IMG/VR virus record: IMGVR_UViG_3300025889_000212
Coordinates: 1 to 44,656 of that record
Length of the DNA stretch: 44,656 nucleotides
Direction: 5' to 3' (one strand)
Source: a virus
The translations under genes and the position numbers were made by a program. The notes under the pieces were generated by a model. It was not told the origin of the DNA, did not search any database, and saw only the letters and a list, made by a program, of their open reading frames with translations. This document shows, piece after piece, positions 3,682 through 10,712 of the stretch (within the stretch, counting starts at the first letter, position 1; each line of letters begins with the position of its first letter).

Positions 3682-3770
3682 AAGAAAAACTATCTGATAT
3701 GGTTGGCACAATGATTTTGTGTGCGGTGTGGGTAATGATTCTTTATTTTCTATTTTGGAGTACGACATGA
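3678..3770 (+). CDS. Tiny membrane peptide, 30 aa
   Basis: ATGA-coupled to the genes on both sides. After MKEKLSD it is hydrophobic (MILCAVWVMILYFLFW), a single predicted membrane span. Together with the 29-aa peptide before it, it could form a two-component membrane unit. Function unknown. Confidence 0.5.
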   Translation: MKEKLSDMVGTMILCAVWVMILYFLFWSTT

Positions 3771-3961
3771 GATGTAGGGCTTGCGATTCATCTATTGAGG
3801 GGCGACCACGGATGGTGATGGATGAAAATAAATTCACTCATGTCTTAATTGACGACCTATGCGGATATTGCATAGTTCAATCAAAGCTCAAGTATTCAGA
3901 TGATGATTTGAGGGATGTATACACAGGAGTTCAATATGCGAATTTCAAGGTCATTCGTTAA
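3767..3961 (+). CDS. Small zinc-finger-like protein, 64 aa
   Basis: ATG 3767 overlaps the previous stop. Two Cys pairs (CRAC at residues 3-6 and CGYC further on) suggest a treble-clef or zinc-ribbon fold. The 3' end overlaps the primase start at 3936 by 26 nt. The specific family is not recognised. Confidence 0.6.
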   Translation: MRCRACDSSIEGRPRMVMDENKFTHVLIDDLCGYCIVQSKLKYSDDDLRDVYTGVQYANFKVIR

Positions 3962-4718
3962 GGAACATGCCCCGACAGATGGAATAGTTAGGGTTAATCA
4001 TAACGAGAATGGGTGTGTAGGCGACAGCGAGAGCTGCGTCATTAGAAACGAGGGTGGCAGGATTAGTGCTAAGTGCTATCGTTGTGGTGGGTGGCAGGTT
4101 ATAGACAATGACTCGTTCAATCCTGCACGGGTTGCTTCGGTCATCAAGCGTGAAGCACAACTACCAAGCGACTGTGTTCCTGCATGGCACACAATGCCAC
4201 GACAGGGCAGGGAATGGCTAGACAAGGCACACATAGGGCAAAGCCTTTGTGATTCCGTAGGAGTGCAATGGAGTGAGCGTACACAGCGTATGTACATCCC
4301 TGCTCGAAACATCTATCAACAGTGGTGGGTGGGGCGTAGCTTTTCCACTAACGAGGCACGGTACAAAACATTAGCAACGCTAAAGGATAGTTGCTTTGCT
4401 ATTAGCTTTGTTAATAGAAACAAACTGAGCAACAGGATTTGGATTGTTGAGGACTTACTGAGTATGTATCGTGTAGCACAGGCAGGCAACGACTGTATGG
4501 CTCTATGCACCACGACAATTAGCGACAAGGCTATTGCAATGCTTGCTAAGTTGGGGTATAATAAGGCTACTCTTAGCTTAGACAATGACAATCCGCAAGT
4601 GATTATGGCTAACAGTAAGATTGCACAGCGACTAGGATGGATGAAGGATGTATGCAGGTCGGATTTAACGACTGACCCCAAGTATTATTCCCCTGACGAA
4701 CTGAAGGAGATGGTATGA
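3936..4718 (+). CDS. DNA primase (zinc ribbon and TOPRIM), 260 aa
   Basis: Makes RNA primers for lagging-strand synthesis. Residues 27-50 form a zinc ribbon (C27, C34, C47, C50). The TOPRIM core shows the IVED glutamate motif at 170-173 and LDND at 215-218, the acidic metal-binding residues. This corresponds to the N-terminal half of T7 gp4; the helicase half is a separate gene at 5134. I chose ATG 3936 because AGGAG (3925-3929) lies just upstream. The stop overlaps the HNH gene's ATG. Confidence 0.9.
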   Translation: MRISRSFVKEHAPTDGIVRVNHNENGCVGDSESCVIRNEGGRISAKCYRCGGWQVIDNDSFNPARVASVIKREAQLPSDCVPAWHTMPRQGREWLDKAHIGQSLCDSVGVQWSERTQRMYIPARNIYQQWWVGRSFSTNEARYKTLATLKDSCFAISFVNRNKLSNRIWIVEDLLSMYRVAQAGNDCMALCTTTISDKAIAMLAKLGYNKATLSLDNDNPQVIMANSKIAQRLGWMKDVCRSDLTTDPKYYSPDELKEMV

Positions 4719-5137
4719 AAACTGATGAAGAGAAACGAGAGCGTTGGAAATTGTACAGTCGTGAGTATTATAGAAAGAATAAAGAAAAGGTAGATGCTAC
4801 TAAAATATCCTACCGTAAGATTCAAAGCCCTGCAGTTGCATTAGTAAAAGAAGCTCGTAAACGTGCAAAGAAACGTGGCGTTCCATGCACCATAACTGTT
4901 GACGACATTGTGCTTCCAAAGAAATGCCCGATACTAAAAATAAAATTAGTTGTTGGGCGCGGGAAGAAACAACATGGCTCGTATTCTCTTGACAGGATTG
5001 TGCCTGAGCTTGGATATGTTGTAGGAAACATTATTGTGATGAGTGATTTGGCTAACACAATGAAGAATGCTGCAAATAAGGAGATGTTGTTGAGGTTTTG
5101 TAAGAATGCACCAAAAATATACGGAGATTGTAGATGA
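4715..5137 (+). CDS. HNH-type endonuclease between primase and helicase, 140 aa
   Basis: The C-terminal half carries the pattern SLDRIVPELGYVVGN...MSDLANTMK of a common phage HNH/intron-type nuclease family (usual form SLDRIDxxKGYxxGNxxxxS). The N-terminus is very basic and probably binds DNA. The clear HNH residues are degenerate: no His is visible next to the CPIL segment. The gene is ATGA-coupled on both sides (4715-4718, 5134-5137), so it has inserted cleanly between two replication genes. Confidence 0.75.
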   Translation: MKTDEEKRERWKLYSREYYRKNKEKVDATKISYRKIQSPAVALVKEARKRAKKRGVPCTITVDDIVLPKKCPILKIKLVVGRGKKQHGSYSLDRIVPELGYVVGNIIVMSDLANTMKNAANKEMLLRFCKNAPKIYGDCR

Positions 5138-6369
5138 TTGACATTGAGATTGTTAGAGCACTTTCACAGCGCGATAACTTTGTCAAGTATAAACGATTCA
5201 TCAAGCAAGAGGCTCTGAGCCGTGAGGCATTCGAGATTCTTGACTGGTATGGTGAGTGGTTTAAGCTTCACAGAGATGCGCAAGTAGTTGATTACCAAAG
5301 CTTTGCCCCTTATGTACTGGTGAGCAAGCTTGGTGGCAGTAAGCCTGAACGACTGGAGATTATTAAACAATGGCTGAACGAGTTAAACAATGACGCAGAT
5401 GAGGACACAGTTGCTACAGTCATCCGTTCACTCGCTACGCGCTTCCATGCCAATGAAATTGCAAGCAAGGCGTTGGCAGTTGTGGATGGCAAAGAGGACA
5501 CTCTTGAGCAGATTGAGGCGCAGCTATCCAAGTATCATCAGGACTGCGGTAAGGTAGAGGATGATGATGACTACATTGTATCTGATGACATCATGGAGAT
5601 GTTGGCAGAGGCTAAGGCTTCTGGGTACAAATGGCGATTAAACGCTCTCAATGAGTCTCTAGGCGATTTAAGGCAGGGGGACTTGGTGGTGGTAGCCACT
5701 CGACCCGATACGGGCAAGACGACCTTCCTAGCGAGCGAGAGCACGTTCATCGCTGAGCAGATGCCGAAAGAGAAAGTTGTGCTATGGCTGAACAATGAGG
5801 AAGCAGGTAAGAAGGTTAAGCGTAGGATTGTGCAGTCTGCTCTTGGCATCACTACCCGCACCATGTTTGAGAAGCCTGAGAAGGTACGGGATGTATGGGC
5901 TGAACGGATGGGACGACCTGACAAGTTCATCCTGTTTGACAAGGCTGACGTATCTGTGTACGATGTAGAGAATCTGTTCGAGAAGTATGACGTAGGCTTG
6001 ATTGTGTTCGACCAGCTGTGGAAAGTACATGGCTTTGAGCGTGAGGCAGGTAATGAGGTGACACGTCAAACTATGATTTTTAATTGGGCACGAGAGCTTG
6101 CTAAGAAATACGCTCCGGTCATCACTGTCCACCAAGCTGACGGCTCTGCTGAGGGTGTGAAGTGGATTGATATGAGCAAGCTGTATGGCTCTAAGACTGG
6201 TGTGCAGGGTGAGGCTGACGCTATCATCACCATCGGACGATTGCCAGAGGAAGGCAACAAGCGGTATCTGTATGTTCCAAAGAACAAGCTAGACGGCAAC
6301 AACCAAGCGTTTCGGAACGGACGTTTCGAGATTGAAATTCAACCTGAGATTGGGAGATTCAAAGAATGA
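5134..6369 (+). CDS. Replicative DNA helicase, DnaB/T7 gp4 type, 411 aa
   Basis: RecA-fold hexameric helicase that unwinds DNA at the fork. Walker A is TRPDTGKT at residues 189-196, Walker B is LIVFDQ at 289-294, the sensor-like HQ lies at 333-334, and YGSKTGVQGEADA follows at 351-363. The N-terminal 180 residues resemble a helical DnaB-like domain, and no primase domain is fused. The Walker A loop lacks the usual first Gly but matches the DnaB form. ATGA-coupled to the HNH gene and to the next gene. Confidence 0.92.
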   Translation: MIDIEIVRALSQRDNFVKYKRFIKQEALSREAFEILDWYGEWFKLHRDAQVVDYQSFAPYVLVSKLGGSKPERLEIIKQWLNELNNDADEDTVATVIRSLATRFHANEIASKALAVVDGKEDTLEQIEAQLSKYHQDCGKVEDDDDYIVSDDIMEMLAEAKASGYKWRLNALNESLGDLRQGDLVVVATRPDTGKTTFLASESTFIAEQMPKEKVVLWLNNEEAGKKVKRRIVQSALGITTRTMFEKPEKVRDVWAERMGRPDKFILFDKADVSVYDVENLFEKYDVGLIVFDQLWKVHGFEREAGNEVTRQTMIFNWARELAKKYAPVITVHQADGSAEGVKWIDMSKLYGSKTGVQGEADAIITIGRLPEEGNKRYLYVPKNKLDGNNQAFRNGRFEIEIQPEIGRFKE

Positions 6370-6695: not shown

Positions 6696-7859
6696 ATGCT
6701 TTTTACTTTAGACTTAGAAACATCTGTAAACTGCAAGGATGAGGGGCGTATGTCTGGTAGTCCTCACTACTCTGGCAACAGCGTTGTACTTGCAGGTTGG
6801 AAAGCTGGCAACAATGCCGTTGGCACAGGAAGTGTAGACGACCTGACTATGGAGCTTGTCGAGTGGCTGTATAGTGACCACGACTACATCGTGTTGTGTG
6901 GGTTTAACATCAGCTTCGACCTCGCCTATCTGCTGCGGTATGAGAAGTTCCGCAAGCTGTTGGTGGAATACAAGGATGTAATACGTGTGTGGGACGCTCA
7001 GCAGGCTCAGTACCTCATATCTGGACAGTCAATGATATACCCCAGCTTGGATGGCTGCTGTGAGCTCTACGGGCTTCCTGTGAAGCCTGACAAGATTAAG
7101 GCATACTGGAACTCAGGCATGCGTACTGAGGACATTCCGATTGACGAGCTGACGGAGTACCTTGAGCATGACGTTAGCGTGACTGAGCAGCTTGCTAGGC
7201 TACAGGTTAAGGCTATGGACAAGACAATGAAGGACTTGTGTTTCATCAAGGGCGATGATATACTTTGTACCACCATCATGGAGAATGCAGGTATGCACTT
7301 TGATTTAGATAAATGCGCAGGGATTAGTGACGAGCTTCGTGTGTCCTTGCTTGAGGTTCAGGAAAAGATGCACTGGCTTGTCAAGAGTGAGACTGGCTTC
7401 GAGTACTTCACCCCCACCAAGAACAAGGAAGCTTCCACTGTCCTGTTCGGCGGTACGTTTGAGTGGGACACTAAGGTAGAGGACGGTGTGTACAAGAGTG
7501 GCATCAAGAAGGGTCAGGTTAAGCTCAAGAAGCAGGTCAATACGATTGACTTTGACGGCATCCTGAGCCCCGTCACCAAGACCAAGGCTAAGGAATTGTT
7601 TCAGGACAGCGTGAGTGACCAAGTGTTGCAGTGGATTCTTGAGAATGAGAATCCTGAGAATTGGGCAGTAGGGCAGTTCATCGGCTACTTGCAAGACTTC
7701 CGCGAGATGCACAAAGACTTATCGACATACTACGATGGCTACACCAAGCTTGTGTGGGATGATGGGATGATTCGCCCTAACTTCCAACACTGTGCTACAC
7801 GAACAGGACGACAGAGCTGCACACAACCCAACCTACAAAATGTTTCTAAAGGAGAATAA
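6696..7859 (+). CDS. Family A DNA polymerase, N-terminal part (3'-5' exonuclease and thumb), 387 aa
   Basis: Proofreading exonuclease and first polymerase segment of a T7/Pol I-type enzyme. Exo motifs are D6-L-E8, N71..F74-D75 and Y155..D159, a complete DEDDy set. The end contains TGR at 370-372 and PNLQN, the conserved strand just before palm motif A. The frame then stops at TAA 7857-7859, and the palm continues in a separate gene at 8041. Typical family members are 600-700 aa in one chain; the two parts sum to 663. ATG 6696 follows AGGA. Confidence 0.92.
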   Translation: MLFTLDLETSVNCKDEGRMSGSPHYSGNSVVLAGWKAGNNAVGTGSVDDLTMELVEWLYSDHDYIVLCGFNISFDLAYLLRYEKFRKLLVEYKDVIRVWDAQQAQYLISGQSMIYPSLDGCCELYGLPVKPDKIKAYWNSGMRTEDIPIDELTEYLEHDVSVTEQLARLQVKAMDKTMKDLCFIKGDDILCTTIMENAGMHFDLDKCAGISDELRVSLLEVQEKMHWLVKSETGFEYFTPTKNKEASTVLFGGTFEWDTKVEDGVYKSGIKKGQVKLKKQVNTIDFDGILSPVTKTKAKELFQDSVSDQVLQWILENENPENWAVGQFIGYLQDFREMHKDLSTYYDGYTKLVWDDGMIRPNFQHCATRTGRQSCTQPNLQNVSKGE

Positions 7860-8040
7860 TATGCAATATGTACCAATGACTGACGATGAGCTGCTTCATA
7901 TTGTGCGAAACCATTCAGTAGATACCATTGAATCAATGAGGGCAATCGAAAGGGCTGTTGTTTCTCGCATGACAAAGGTAGTTGAGCCGATTATAAGAAG
8001 CCAGCAGTACAACGATGAGGTTTATAAGGACGCCCCGTAA
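7857..8040 (+). other. 184-nt insert splitting the polymerase gene
   Basis: Removing exactly these 184 nt joins ...SKGE to MSRIKECF... in frame, giving the continuous family A sequence expected between PNLQN and motif A. The insert supplies a TAA, an ATG, a 59-codon gene, and a TAA directly abutting the next ATG. It has no splice-like or intein-like residues that I can see. Confidence 0.7.
7861..8040 (+). CDS. Small ORF between polymerase halves, 59 aa
   Basis: ATG 7861 follows the AAAGGAG at 7847-7853, which lies in the last codons of the upstream polymerase part. The product is a mixed-charge helical peptide (MQYVPMTDDELLHIVRN...) of unknown family. It is in the same frame as the downstream polymerase part and separated from it by a single TAA (8038-8040), so readthrough would fuse them. 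It is not recognisable as a homing endonuclease. It may be a bridging subunit or a fortuitous insert. Confidence 0.6.
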   Translation: MQYVPMTDDELLHIVRNHSVDTIESMRAIERAVVSRMTKVVEPIIRSQQYNDEVYKDAP

Positions 8041-8871
8041 ATGAGCCGTATCAAAGAATGCTTCACCACTAGGTTTGAGAATGGCAAGATTGTCAACGCC
8101 GACTTCTCTCAGCTAGAAGTTGTTGGCTTGGCTATCCTATCCCTAGACCGACAGCTTATTGACGACATTAAATCAGGACGGGACATGCACGTTGTTCGTG
8201 CTGCTGAGTTGCTTGGCATTGCAGAGAGTGCAGTCACTAAGCAACAACGACAGCTTGCCAAGATGCTGAGCTTCCAGTTGCAGTATGGCTCTGGCGCTCG
8301 CAACATGGCAGAGCAGAACAAGATTCACATTAACCTAGCAAAGAAGTTTATCGAGCAATATTACGAGAGGTACAAAGATGTCAAACGATGGCAAGACTAC
8401 GTTAGGGAGAGTGTCGTTGCGTCTCGCAGAGTTGAGGGGCATACTAAAGGAGGCTACCCCAGAGGAGTTGGAACATACCGAAGCCCTTCTGGTAGAGCTT
8501 ATTCGTTCTATGAATACGACCCTATGGGAAACTGGCAGAAAGACCCCAGCTTCTCCCCAACAGAAATGAAGAACTACCCCTGCCAAGGGTTCAGTACTGG
8601 CGATGTTATGGCGTTGTATCGGTCTCAGGTTATGAGACAGCTGCTGCCATACATGTTCACAAATATCTTATTTATCAATAGTGTACATGATAGCGTAATG
8701 TTTGACTGTGATAGTGAGGAGAGTGTTGCAATCTGTAAGAAAGTGCTGTATAATATGTGTAAGGAGCTTCCAATGCTTCTTACCAAGCGGTTCGGAATTG
8801 AAGTGCCGTTGGAGTTTAACATTGATGTAGAGACTGGCCCATCGTGGGCCGAACTAACTAAGGAGCAATAA
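8041..8871 (+). CDS. Family A DNA polymerase, C-terminal part (palm and fingers), 276 aa
   Basis: Carries the polymerase active site. Motif A is DFSQLE at 21-26, motif B (O-helix) is KQQRQLAK...QYG at about 67-83, and motif C is VHDS at 216-219, with Ser where most Pol I enzymes have Glu. ATG 8041 abuts the previous TAA with no separate strong ribosome site, so translation probably depends on coupling to the 59-aa gene. It must associate with the product of 6696-7859 to form a working enzyme (inference). Confidence 0.92.
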   Translation: MSRIKECFTTRFENGKIVNADFSQLEVVGLAILSLDRQLIDDIKSGRDMHVVRAAELLGIAESAVTKQQRQLAKMLSFQLQYGSGARNMAEQNKIHINLAKKFIEQYYERYKDVKRWQDYVRESVVASRRVEGHTKGGYPRGVGTYRSPSGRAYSFYEYDPMGNWQKDPSFSPTEMKNYPCQGFSTGDVMALYRSQVMRQLLPYMFTNILFINSVHDSVMFDCDSEESVAICKKVLYNMCKELPMLLTKRFGIEVPLEFNIDVETGPSWAELTKEQ

Positions 8872-9294: not shown

Positions 9295-10022
9295 TGAAGG
9301 CTCTCATTGACGGTGACATCTTAGTGTACTCCTGTGGGTTTGCCTCAGATGCTGCTGCCAAAGAGCAAGGCATTGAAGCAGAGCCTGTAGAGTTTTGCCT
9401 TAACGGTGTGAAAGAAACAATCCGAAGCCTCTGTGAAGCTACAGAGGCAACGGAATACATCGTGTTCCTAACAGGCAAGGACAACTTCCGATACAAGGTT
9501 AGCCCTGATTATAAAGCTAACCGTAAGGATGCAGCAAAGCCCTACCACTATGACAGCGTTAGAAAGTATCTTGAGCAACATCATCCATGCAGCGTTAGCA
9601 AGGGTGAGGAAGCAGACGATGAGCTAGGTAGACATCAAGCCAAGGCAGAGCCAGCTAGTACAGTTATCATAAGCAAGGATAAAGACCTTGACATGATTGC
9701 AGGTTGGCATTACAACTGGAGTCCGAAGAACAAAGAGAAAGGGATGTACTTCACCACAGAGATTGACGGCTTACGGATATTCTACAAGCAACTAATCACT
9801 GGTGATGCTACGGACAATATCTCTGGAGTTTATCGTCTGTTTGGGCGTAAGGCTACAAAGGGATTGCTTGAGCCATTGGATGAAATGCGGAACGAGCGTG
9901 ACATGTTCCAGTATGTTTTAGATGAAGCCTATAAGGGCGACATTGACTTGATGGACAAGCAAGCAAAGCTCGTATGGATTAGGACAGATGAAACTTGGGA
10001 GGAGCACTTTTCGCGGCTATAG
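9294..10022 (+). CDS. 5'-3' exonuclease / flap endonuclease, 242 aa
   Basis: PIN/FEN-fold nuclease that would remove primers or degrade host DNA. Metal-binding acids are visible at D6-G-D8, EEADDE (105-110), SKDKD (127-131) and the helix-hairpin-helix-like TGDATDNISGV (169-179). The length is typical of phage versions such as T7 gp6 relatives. The 3' end, including the TAG stop at 10020-10022, lies inside tRNA-Arg, a 10-nt overlap. Confidence 0.9.
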   Translation: MKALIDGDILVYSCGFASDAAAKEQGIEAEPVEFCLNGVKETIRSLCEATEATEYIVFLTGKDNFRYKVSPDYKANRKDAAKPYHYDSVRKYLEQHHPCSVSKGEEADDELGRHQAKAEPASTVIISKDKDLDMIAGWHYNWSPKNKEKGMYFTTEIDGLRIFYKQLITGDATDNISGVYRLFGRKATKGLLEPLDEMRNERDMFQYVLDEAYKGDIDLMDKQAKLVWIRTDETWEEHFSRL

Positions 10023-10089
10023 CTCAACGGGATAGAGCATGAGCCTTCTAAGCTCAGGGTTCGGGGTTCGAGTCCCTGTGGTCGCACCA
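10013..10089 (+). tRNA. tRNA-Arg (anticodon TCT)
   Basis: All four arms fold. The acceptor is 10013-10019 with 10079-10085 (two G-U pairs). The D stem is GCTC/GAGC. The anticodon stem is TGAGC/GCTCA with loop CTTCTAA, and the T stem carries TTCGAGT. CCA is encoded at 10087-10089. It reads AGA codons. The first 10 nt are shared with the exonuclease gene. Confidence 0.95.
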
Positions 10090-10092
10090 ATT

Positions 10093-10167
10093 GCTCCGTT
10101 AGCTCAGTGGTAGAGCAGCCGCCTTGTAAGCGGCAGGTCGGGGGTTCAAGTCTCTCACGGAGCACCA
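10093..10167 (+). tRNA. tRNA-Thr (anticodon TGT)
   Basis: Acceptor GCTCCGT/ACGGAGC, D stem GCTC/GAGC, anticodon stem GCCGC/GCGGC with loop CTTGTAA, T loop TTCAAGT, and encoded CCA at 10165-10167. It reads ACA codons. It lies 3 nt after tRNA-Arg, so both are processed from one transcript. Confidence 0.95.
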
Positions 10168-10185: not shown

Positions 10186-10332
10186 ATGAATGATGAATTT
10201 GAAATTGATACGGGAGACATGCAGAATCTGGCAGATGTTCCCACAGAGGTGCTGGTGACACTGGCCCTTGGTATCATTGAGGAACTTGAGCTTCGTGTTA
10301 AGCGTAAGGAAAAGCTTAGGGCGGTGAATTAA
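10186..10332 (+). CDS. Small acidic hypothetical protein, 48 aa
   Basis: ATG 10186 follows AAAGGA (10175-10180). The N-terminus is acidic (MNDEFEIDTGDM) and the rest is a long amphipathic helix ending in Lys/Arg. The stop overlaps the next ATG (TAATG). Unknown; its place behind the tRNAs does not suggest a role. Confidence 0.6.
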   Translation: MNDEFEIDTGDMQNLADVPTEVLVTLALGIIEELELRVKRKEKLRAVN

Positions 10333-10712
10333 TGGCGAAGCGAGCAAAGCCTAGTGGTGACTTTAAGCACTGGCCTTTGTGGAGCAACAGCCAGTTCTGG
10401 AGCTTTATACGTAGCGGCTTGCGTTCCAAGTGGAGTCGCTATCCAGTTAAGTTTCAAGTGTTAAATGCAGCAAAGCGCAAGGCATTGCTTAACCCACGAG
10501 CCAAGTGGGAGTATCAATGCGATGTGTGTAAGACTTGGAGCTTGCAGAAAGACGTAGAAGTTGACCATTTAATCCCATGCGGAACATTGCGTTCCTATGA
10601 AGATTTGCCACAGTTTGTTGAGCGTTTGTTCTGTGGTGCTGAACACCTACGTACCGTATGTAAGCAATGTCACAAAATCATCACAAAGGAAGAACGGAGT
10701 AAAGATGACTGA
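10332..10712 (+). CDS. HNH endonuclease-like protein, 126 aa
   Basis: The HNH/treble-clef layout is complete: C63-x2-C66, the catalytic DH at 78-79, and C110-x2-C113-H114, with the spacing seen in zinc-bound phage HNH proteins. The N-terminus is basic and aromatic. It could be a homing endonuclease or a packaging-type nuclease. It overlaps the previous gene by 1 nt and the next by 8 nt. Confidence 0.82.
   Translation: MAKRAKPSGDFKHWPLWSNSQFWSFIRSGLRSKWSRYPVKFQVLNAAKRKALLNPRAKWEYQCDVCKTWSLQKDVEVDHLIPCGTLRSYEDLPQFVERLFCGAEHLRTVCKQCHKIITKEERSKDD

Follow-up and report, generated by a model that had tools for sequence, protein, structure and literature searches.

The water-borne phage studied here very probably makes its DNA polymerase out of two separate proteins, as does the whole branch of the phage family to which it belongs. 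In the window (the whole 44,656-nt stretch of viral DNA that was analysed), the family A DNA polymerase is encoded by two genes, polN and polC, with a 59-codon open reading frame (ORF) between them. The features concerned are the following:

3915 to 4718, plus strand: DNA primase, a separate gene (phrog_47, E 7e-17)
4715 to 5137, plus strand: ORF between primase and helicase, endonuclease VII/HNH-like (phrog_3322, E 1e-28)
5134 to 6369, plus strand: DnaB-like replicative helicase, in the same operon as polN and polC
6696 to 7859, plus strand: polN, N-terminal half of the family A DNA polymerase, 387 aa (Pfam DNA_pol_A; PHROG phrog_9556, E 1.6e-55)
7848 to 7854, plus strand: AAAGGAG, Shine-Dalgarno sequence of the small ORF, 6 nt before the ATG at 7861
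7861 to 8040, plus strand: small cargo ORF, 59 aa plus a TAA that abuts the polC ATG, with homologs in loci L003 and L009
8026 to 8030, plus strand: AAGGA, likely Shine-Dalgarno sequence of polC, 10 nt before the ATG at 8041 (anti-Shine-Dalgarno energy -5.9 kcal/mol)
8041 to 8871, plus strand: polC, C-terminal half, 276 aa (Pfam DNA_pol_A, E 1e-35; phrog_2573, E 1.5e-51)

The polN product contains the 3'-5' exonuclease (DLET, NISFD and YLEHD), the thumb and the TGR..PNLQN portion of the palm, and ends in PNLQNVSKGE at a TAA stop codon (7857-7859); the polC product starts with MSRIKECF, immediately 3' of the TAA of the small ORF, and carries motif A (DFSQLE), motif B (RQLAKMLSFQLQYG) and motif C (VHDS). 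Because polN matches positions 28-132 of the Pfam DNA_pol_A profile (E 2e-12) and polC the consecutive positions 140-381 (E 1e-35), the two are successive portions of one domain. Thus a first-pass annotation of this DNA was right that the polymerase gene is cut in two and that the cut lies just ahead of motif A of the palm. It is polN and polC together that present the domain profile, motifs A, B and C, and exonuclease motifs I-III of a family A enzyme. Exonuclease residues D6, E8, N71, D75, Y155 and D159 of polN are invariant across relatives, as are the catalytic residues in motifs A, B and C of polC, and both halves are under purifying selection. Alignment with intact polymerases, a check that the annotation had proposed, indicated that the joined halves (QN-VSKGEMSR-IK) are equal in length to an intact enzyme (QN-IPRGDTSE-VK) across the junction. 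When aligned to the Bst and Klenow enzymes, the TGR arginine falls in polN and the metal-binding aspartates fall in polC; in Klenow, the TGR arginine touches the primer terminus. With the exonuclease and TGR..PNLQN in one chain and motifs A, B and C in the other, the polymerase active site is divided between the chains, and this division of motifs supports the earlier suggestion that an active enzyme would require both.

The annotation also held that a 184-nt insert had cut the polymerase gene, and it is correct arithmetically that removing positions 7857-8040 (184 nt) gives a single frame. That insertion of the 59-codon element itself cut a formerly intact gene is, however, extremely unlikely. 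In locus L002, whose polC DNA is 96.4% identical to that of the window, the insert is absent and the polymerase is still encoded by two overlapping genes; the junction reads AAAGGAGAGTAATGAGC, the polN stop and polC start overlapping as TAATG. The same split is found without the insert in ICP2_2013_A_Haiti (9-nt gap) and in four further loci (L022, -4; L024, 3; L028, 1; L034, 2), and with other contents elsewhere: a different ORF in L001 and L004, a third in L005, an HNH ORF in phage ICP2 and an 86-aa ORF in phage VP41s3. Moreover, the split is common to all 22 relatives divided at the position used by the window, with differing cargo or none. The existence of an insert-free yet split allele, together with the varied or absent cargo of relatives, argues that the split predates the insert. 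(Note that because other close relatives mostly carry cargo, L002 could be a secondary deletion, which would still show that the split is independent of the insert.) A search of relatives for the same split, also proposed by the annotation, found it in cultured phages as well as in independent metagenome assemblies, and on the strength of this recurrence an assembly artefact was rejected.

We classified 249 loci from IMG/VR and GenBank phages, 160 as split and 83 as intact; the relatives were fetched with split-gene queries, and these shares are not prevalence in nature. Dereplication at 90% gave 117 relatives, of which 22 are split at site 1 (the position in the window), 56 are split at site 2 (about 12 residues further on, nearer motif A) and 39 are intact. 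A tree built from 91 joined polymerases (22 site 1, 30 site 2 and 39 intact) requires 3 changes of state, compared with a mean of 41 when states are shuffled. Site 2 constitutes a single fully supported group, the site-1 and site-2 splits occupy separate deep clades apart from the intact polymerases, and re-fusion is unnecessary. The small number of state changes relative to the shuffled mean argues that the split has been inherited over deep divergence and has arisen at at least two positions. In an AlphaFold model of the intact relative L046 (pLDDT 90), whose fold matches the Bst, Taq and Klenow polymerases, site 1 lies in the loop at 371-374 and site 2 in the loop at 382-387; the sites flank a helix (375-379) and both precede the motif A strand (388-394). 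A few of the 160 split loci (L057, L208 and L236) are interrupted at other places: near motif B, their polymerase genes have an additional or different break that neither site 1 nor site 2 accounts for. In L096, an apparent intein (ending ..GMLSHNC-SLEVV) sits in or immediately ahead of motif A of an otherwise intact polymerase.

What lies between the halves turns over among relatives. The gap between polN and polC ranges from an overlap up to 3.6 kb and is occupied by unrelated genes (small ORFs and HNH, dihydrofolate reductase and methylase genes), and 98 ORFs from this slot form 54 sequence clusters, mostly singletons; HNH endonucleases, a nucleotidyltransferase-like protein and DUF551 are among them. 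In ct2os315 a stretch of 3.6 kb that includes a cytosine methylase, a stomatin-like gene and other genes separates the halves, and in the metagenomic phage ctOsX528 (MW202697) the slot holds an R67-type dihydrofolate reductase gene (4849-5055 of locus L017; PF06442, E 2.7e-22). (A start codon could not be located close to where the polC homology of ctOsX528 begins.) Of the 77 loci for which a slot ORF is listed, 76 have the last one ending -32 to +7 nt from the polC start; in the lone exception, L018, the automatic ORF pick was off and the true last ORF ends 2 nt before the polC start. We rejected the idea that the slot is a special hotspot, because the primase-helicase, helicase-polN and polC-exonuclease borders of the same operons vary equally in length. 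Once split, the polymerase border acts like any other gene border. At the primase-helicase border of the window, for example, the endonuclease VII/HNH-like ORF (4715-5137) overlaps both neighbours by 4 nt, and in the close relative L001 primase and helicase overlap directly, with no such gene at that border. By eye, zinc-ribbon look-alikes (CRAC/CKAC..C..C) can be seen upstream of the primase in the window (3719-3961) and in the polymerase slot of L218 (8656-8940) and L179 (8152-8460). Two adjacent tRNA genes (10013-10164) lie shortly after the exonuclease gene of the window, with an HNH-like ORF (10332-10712) next to them on the far side; a tRNA pair is similarly placed in L001 and L031.

The product of the small ORF is predicted to form two helices (pLDDT 76). 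It has no significant match in Pfam, PHROG or a viral fold library (none below E 0.05 in Pfam or PHROG), and no relatives were found in GenBank phages (best match only E about 2) or in bacterial genomes. In particular, no HNH, GIY-YIG, LAGLIDADG or similar domain was detected in it with Pfam or PHROG, and the absence of a nuclease-domain match and the two predicted helices agree with the earlier view that it is not an endonuclease. A 59-aa homolog occupies the same slot in L003, and L009 has a stand-alone copy of the gene, 91% identical, outside the polymerase in an unrelated phage. Comparison with L009 gave a dN/dS of 0.037/0.92 (about 0.04), with 17 of the 25 differences at third positions, and comparison with L003 gave 0.19/1.04 (about 0.18). 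These low ratios argue that the ORF is not a chance one and that its protein is under purifying selection.

The copy in L009 is the last gene in a row of small ORFs and is followed by an inverted repeat that is GC-rich and has a T run; the phage has a fused primase-helicase and is without a match to the polC of the window. Directly 3' of the stop codon of this copy, L009 reads ATGAGCCATACAAAAAA, close to the start of polC in the window, ATGAGCCGTATCAAAGAA. (The 2.3 Mb of loci contain the pattern ATGAGCC.TA 12 times.) The 5' edge common to the window and L009 copies is CTAAAGGAGAAT, the Shine-Dalgarno region. The simplest reading of these sequences would be that the L009 copy left a polymerase slot carrying a scrap of polC. 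The occurrence of a 91% identical stand-alone copy with a polC footprint in an unrelated phage argues that the 59-aa gene is mobile cargo, a selected gene standing alone at an unrelated locus in the manner of a 'moron'. The slot ORF of L001 is a chimera, its tail being that of the ORF in the window and its front that of the L004 ORF.

The arrangement of start and stop signals is consistent with each protein being initiated separately. The AAAGGAG sequence that precedes the small ORF is embedded within the terminal codons of polN (SKGE), and in L002 the same sequence directly serves polC; the AAGGA sequence ahead of polC sits inside the small ORF. Across 76 split loci, predicted pairing with the anti-Shine-Dalgarno sequence was stronger at polC starts (median -5.9 kcal/mol) than at internal ATGs (-3.1 kcal/mol; p 2e-9), which supports separate but tightly coupled initiation for each protein. 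Stop/start abutment and the embedded Shine-Dalgarno sequences support the proposal of the annotation that polN, the small ORF and polC are set out for coupled translation, and the three would probably be translated in this way.

We regard as highly probable the explanation that the phage has a two-gene, two-chain polymerase, that the split is old and inherited, that the border between the halves exchanges passengers, and that the 59-aa ORF is such a passenger. Here, polN would supply the proofreading exonuclease, the thumb and the first palm segment, and polC would supply the remaining palm and the fingers, with all of the polymerase carboxylates. Both would be made from one polycistronic mRNA by means of closely spaced or overlapping stop/start signals and would assemble into one enzyme at the palm loop junction. 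The split would be ancient, with the border between the halves gaining and losing small passenger genes as other operon borders do, and the 59-aa ORF would be one selected, independently mobile small phage gene among these. Short-homology recombination at Shine-Dalgarno and start-codon sequences would most likely be the route by which cargo is gained and lost.

It is very unlikely that the insert is instead a small self-splicing intron, or the remnant of one, with the polymerase restored at the RNA level. Phage family A polymerase genes do carry group I introns, the slot of ICP2 has an HNH ORF, and RefSeq annotates the ICP2 polymerase as joined. The phiL7 intron lies at E. coli position 676, which in standard numbering we take to be inside the PNLQN motif and near site 1. 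The introns of phiL7, Pf-WMP3 and SPO1 (PMC3428280) interrupt the same conserved gene as the window insert does, that of phiL7 near site 1, but they have self-splicing RNA structure, which was not detected in the window, and yield one protein after splicing. At the gathering threshold, and without a positive-control intron, Rfam returned no intron family for the window or 10 other split loci, the matches being tRNAs and a tmRNA-like fragment only. Moreover, the 184-nt insert is almost all protein-coding (dN/dS 0.04-0.18), alleles that lack it are still split, the cargo is unrelated among relatives, and the 3.6-kb separation of the halves in ct2os315 means that splicing, whether of RNA or of protein, cannot be the general explanation. 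An intron-like element spliced from the mRNA, raised by the annotation as a challenge to its own reading, therefore finds no support in the Rfam result or in the insert-free alleles. Nor does the insert resemble an intein, as there are stop codons at 7857 and 8038 and its frame differs from that of polN. (A tmRNA-like match in the split-polymerase phage L033, at 7475-7553, is only 79 nt long and spans both ends of the Rfam model.) We think it just as improbable that the halves are joined by frameshifting or stop-codon readthrough to give some full-length polymerase. The cargo ORF of the window is in one frame with polC, a single TAA between them, and many junctions overlap by 1-17 nt; the frame relation, however, is not conserved (TAATG in L003, ATGA in L004 and an 8-nt overlap in L005), on which ground a readthrough fusion of the cargo ORF with polC was rejected, and gaps that run to hundreds of nt and contain several ORFs, or to 3.6 kb as in ct2os315, could not be bridged in this way.

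How the split arose is a separate matter, and a homing endonuclease that once inserted at these sites, cutting the gene in two, and has since been lost or replaced, with the current cargo as its successors, has in our estimation somewhat less than an even chance of being the origin. HNH ORFs are present in the slot of ICP2 and L181, polymerase genes are classic targets of introns and HNH endonucleases, and T4-like phages follow such a path in other genes. On the other hand, HNH genes make up a small minority of what the slots contain, they enter other borders too (such as 4715-5137 of the window), and an endonuclease may have entered a gene that was already split, as has been argued for Aeromonas phage 25. 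Note that an endonuclease origin would be compatible with a two-chain polymerase and an inherited split. We consider it unlikely that two independent splits at the loops flanking one helix before motif A were kept because the two-chain form is advantageous; two chains might remove the stretch from PNLQN to motif A as a target of introns and homing endonucleases, or might allow the exonuclease and polymerase chains to be controlled separately.

The large terminase subunit (TerL) of the window is 56-57% identical to those of MEP401, MEP402 and ICP2 (98-99% coverage), which makes the phage Zobellviridae-like; its polymerase halves are nearest to those of the VP41s3, ICP2 and MEP phages, and no close DNA relatives were found among GenBank phages. 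As in split polymerases of the Zobellviridae, polN and polC are separate and divided between PNLQN and motif A. The annotation named no precedent for a tiny non-endonuclease ORF at such a split, but MEP401 and MEP402 (PMC10580990) and VP41s3 each have one. MEP401 and MEP402, Methylophilales phages placed in the same family as the window by their terminase (57% identity), likewise encode a family A polymerase as two ORFs separated by a small one, but the split is about 12 codons downstream, after ..IKTLFLSRYGE, the C-terminal part begins MILNADAK, and the cargo is an unrelated 77-aa ORF. The 2023 paper described these and most of its group I genomes as having a polymerase in two ORFs together with a small uncharacterised ORF, and suggested an intron without deciding the matter (PMC10580990). 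The Vibrio phages ICP2, ICP2_2013_A_Haiti and VP41s3, also Zobellviridae, share site 1 with the window (..PNLQNxSN and a stop, then MS[D]IK..), but they are about 30-37% identical and differ in cargo: ICP2 has an HNH ORF, VP41s3 an 86-aa ORF and the Haiti isolate none. The RefSeq record of ICP2 (NC_015158.1) gives a two-part join around the HNH gene; relatives indicate two genes, and the record is misleading. In the Aeromonas T4-like phages 25 and 44RR the replicative polymerase is also encoded by a pair of genes, which may or may not have an endonuclease between them, but it is of family B and the interruption is a seg endonuclease or an untranslated spacer rather than small coding cargo (PMC2988022). 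The halves of the split gene 43 of phage 25 co-purify and are active (PMC2988022), which provides a precedent for a polymerase made of two chains.

Thus, the split Zobellviridae polymerase with a small ORF (MEP401/402, 2023) and the split polymerase genes of Aeromonas T4-like phages were already known. New findings are the alleles that are split yet lack the insert, the two separate split clades with the loops at which they divide, the halves that lie apart, the diversity of the cargo, and the stand-alone mobile copy of the 59-aa gene. The persistence of two genes across deep divergence and the use of two separate split sites argue against the intron suggested in 2023 for interrupted Zobellviridae polymerases and favour a heritable two-subunit polymerase. 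These findings provide natural split points for a single-subunit polymerase and a two-chain replicase that can be tested, and, because the ICP2 polymerase is stored as one joined gene, they call for caution in annotation. They also indicate that small phage genes pass quickly through a gene border, even one within an essential enzyme.
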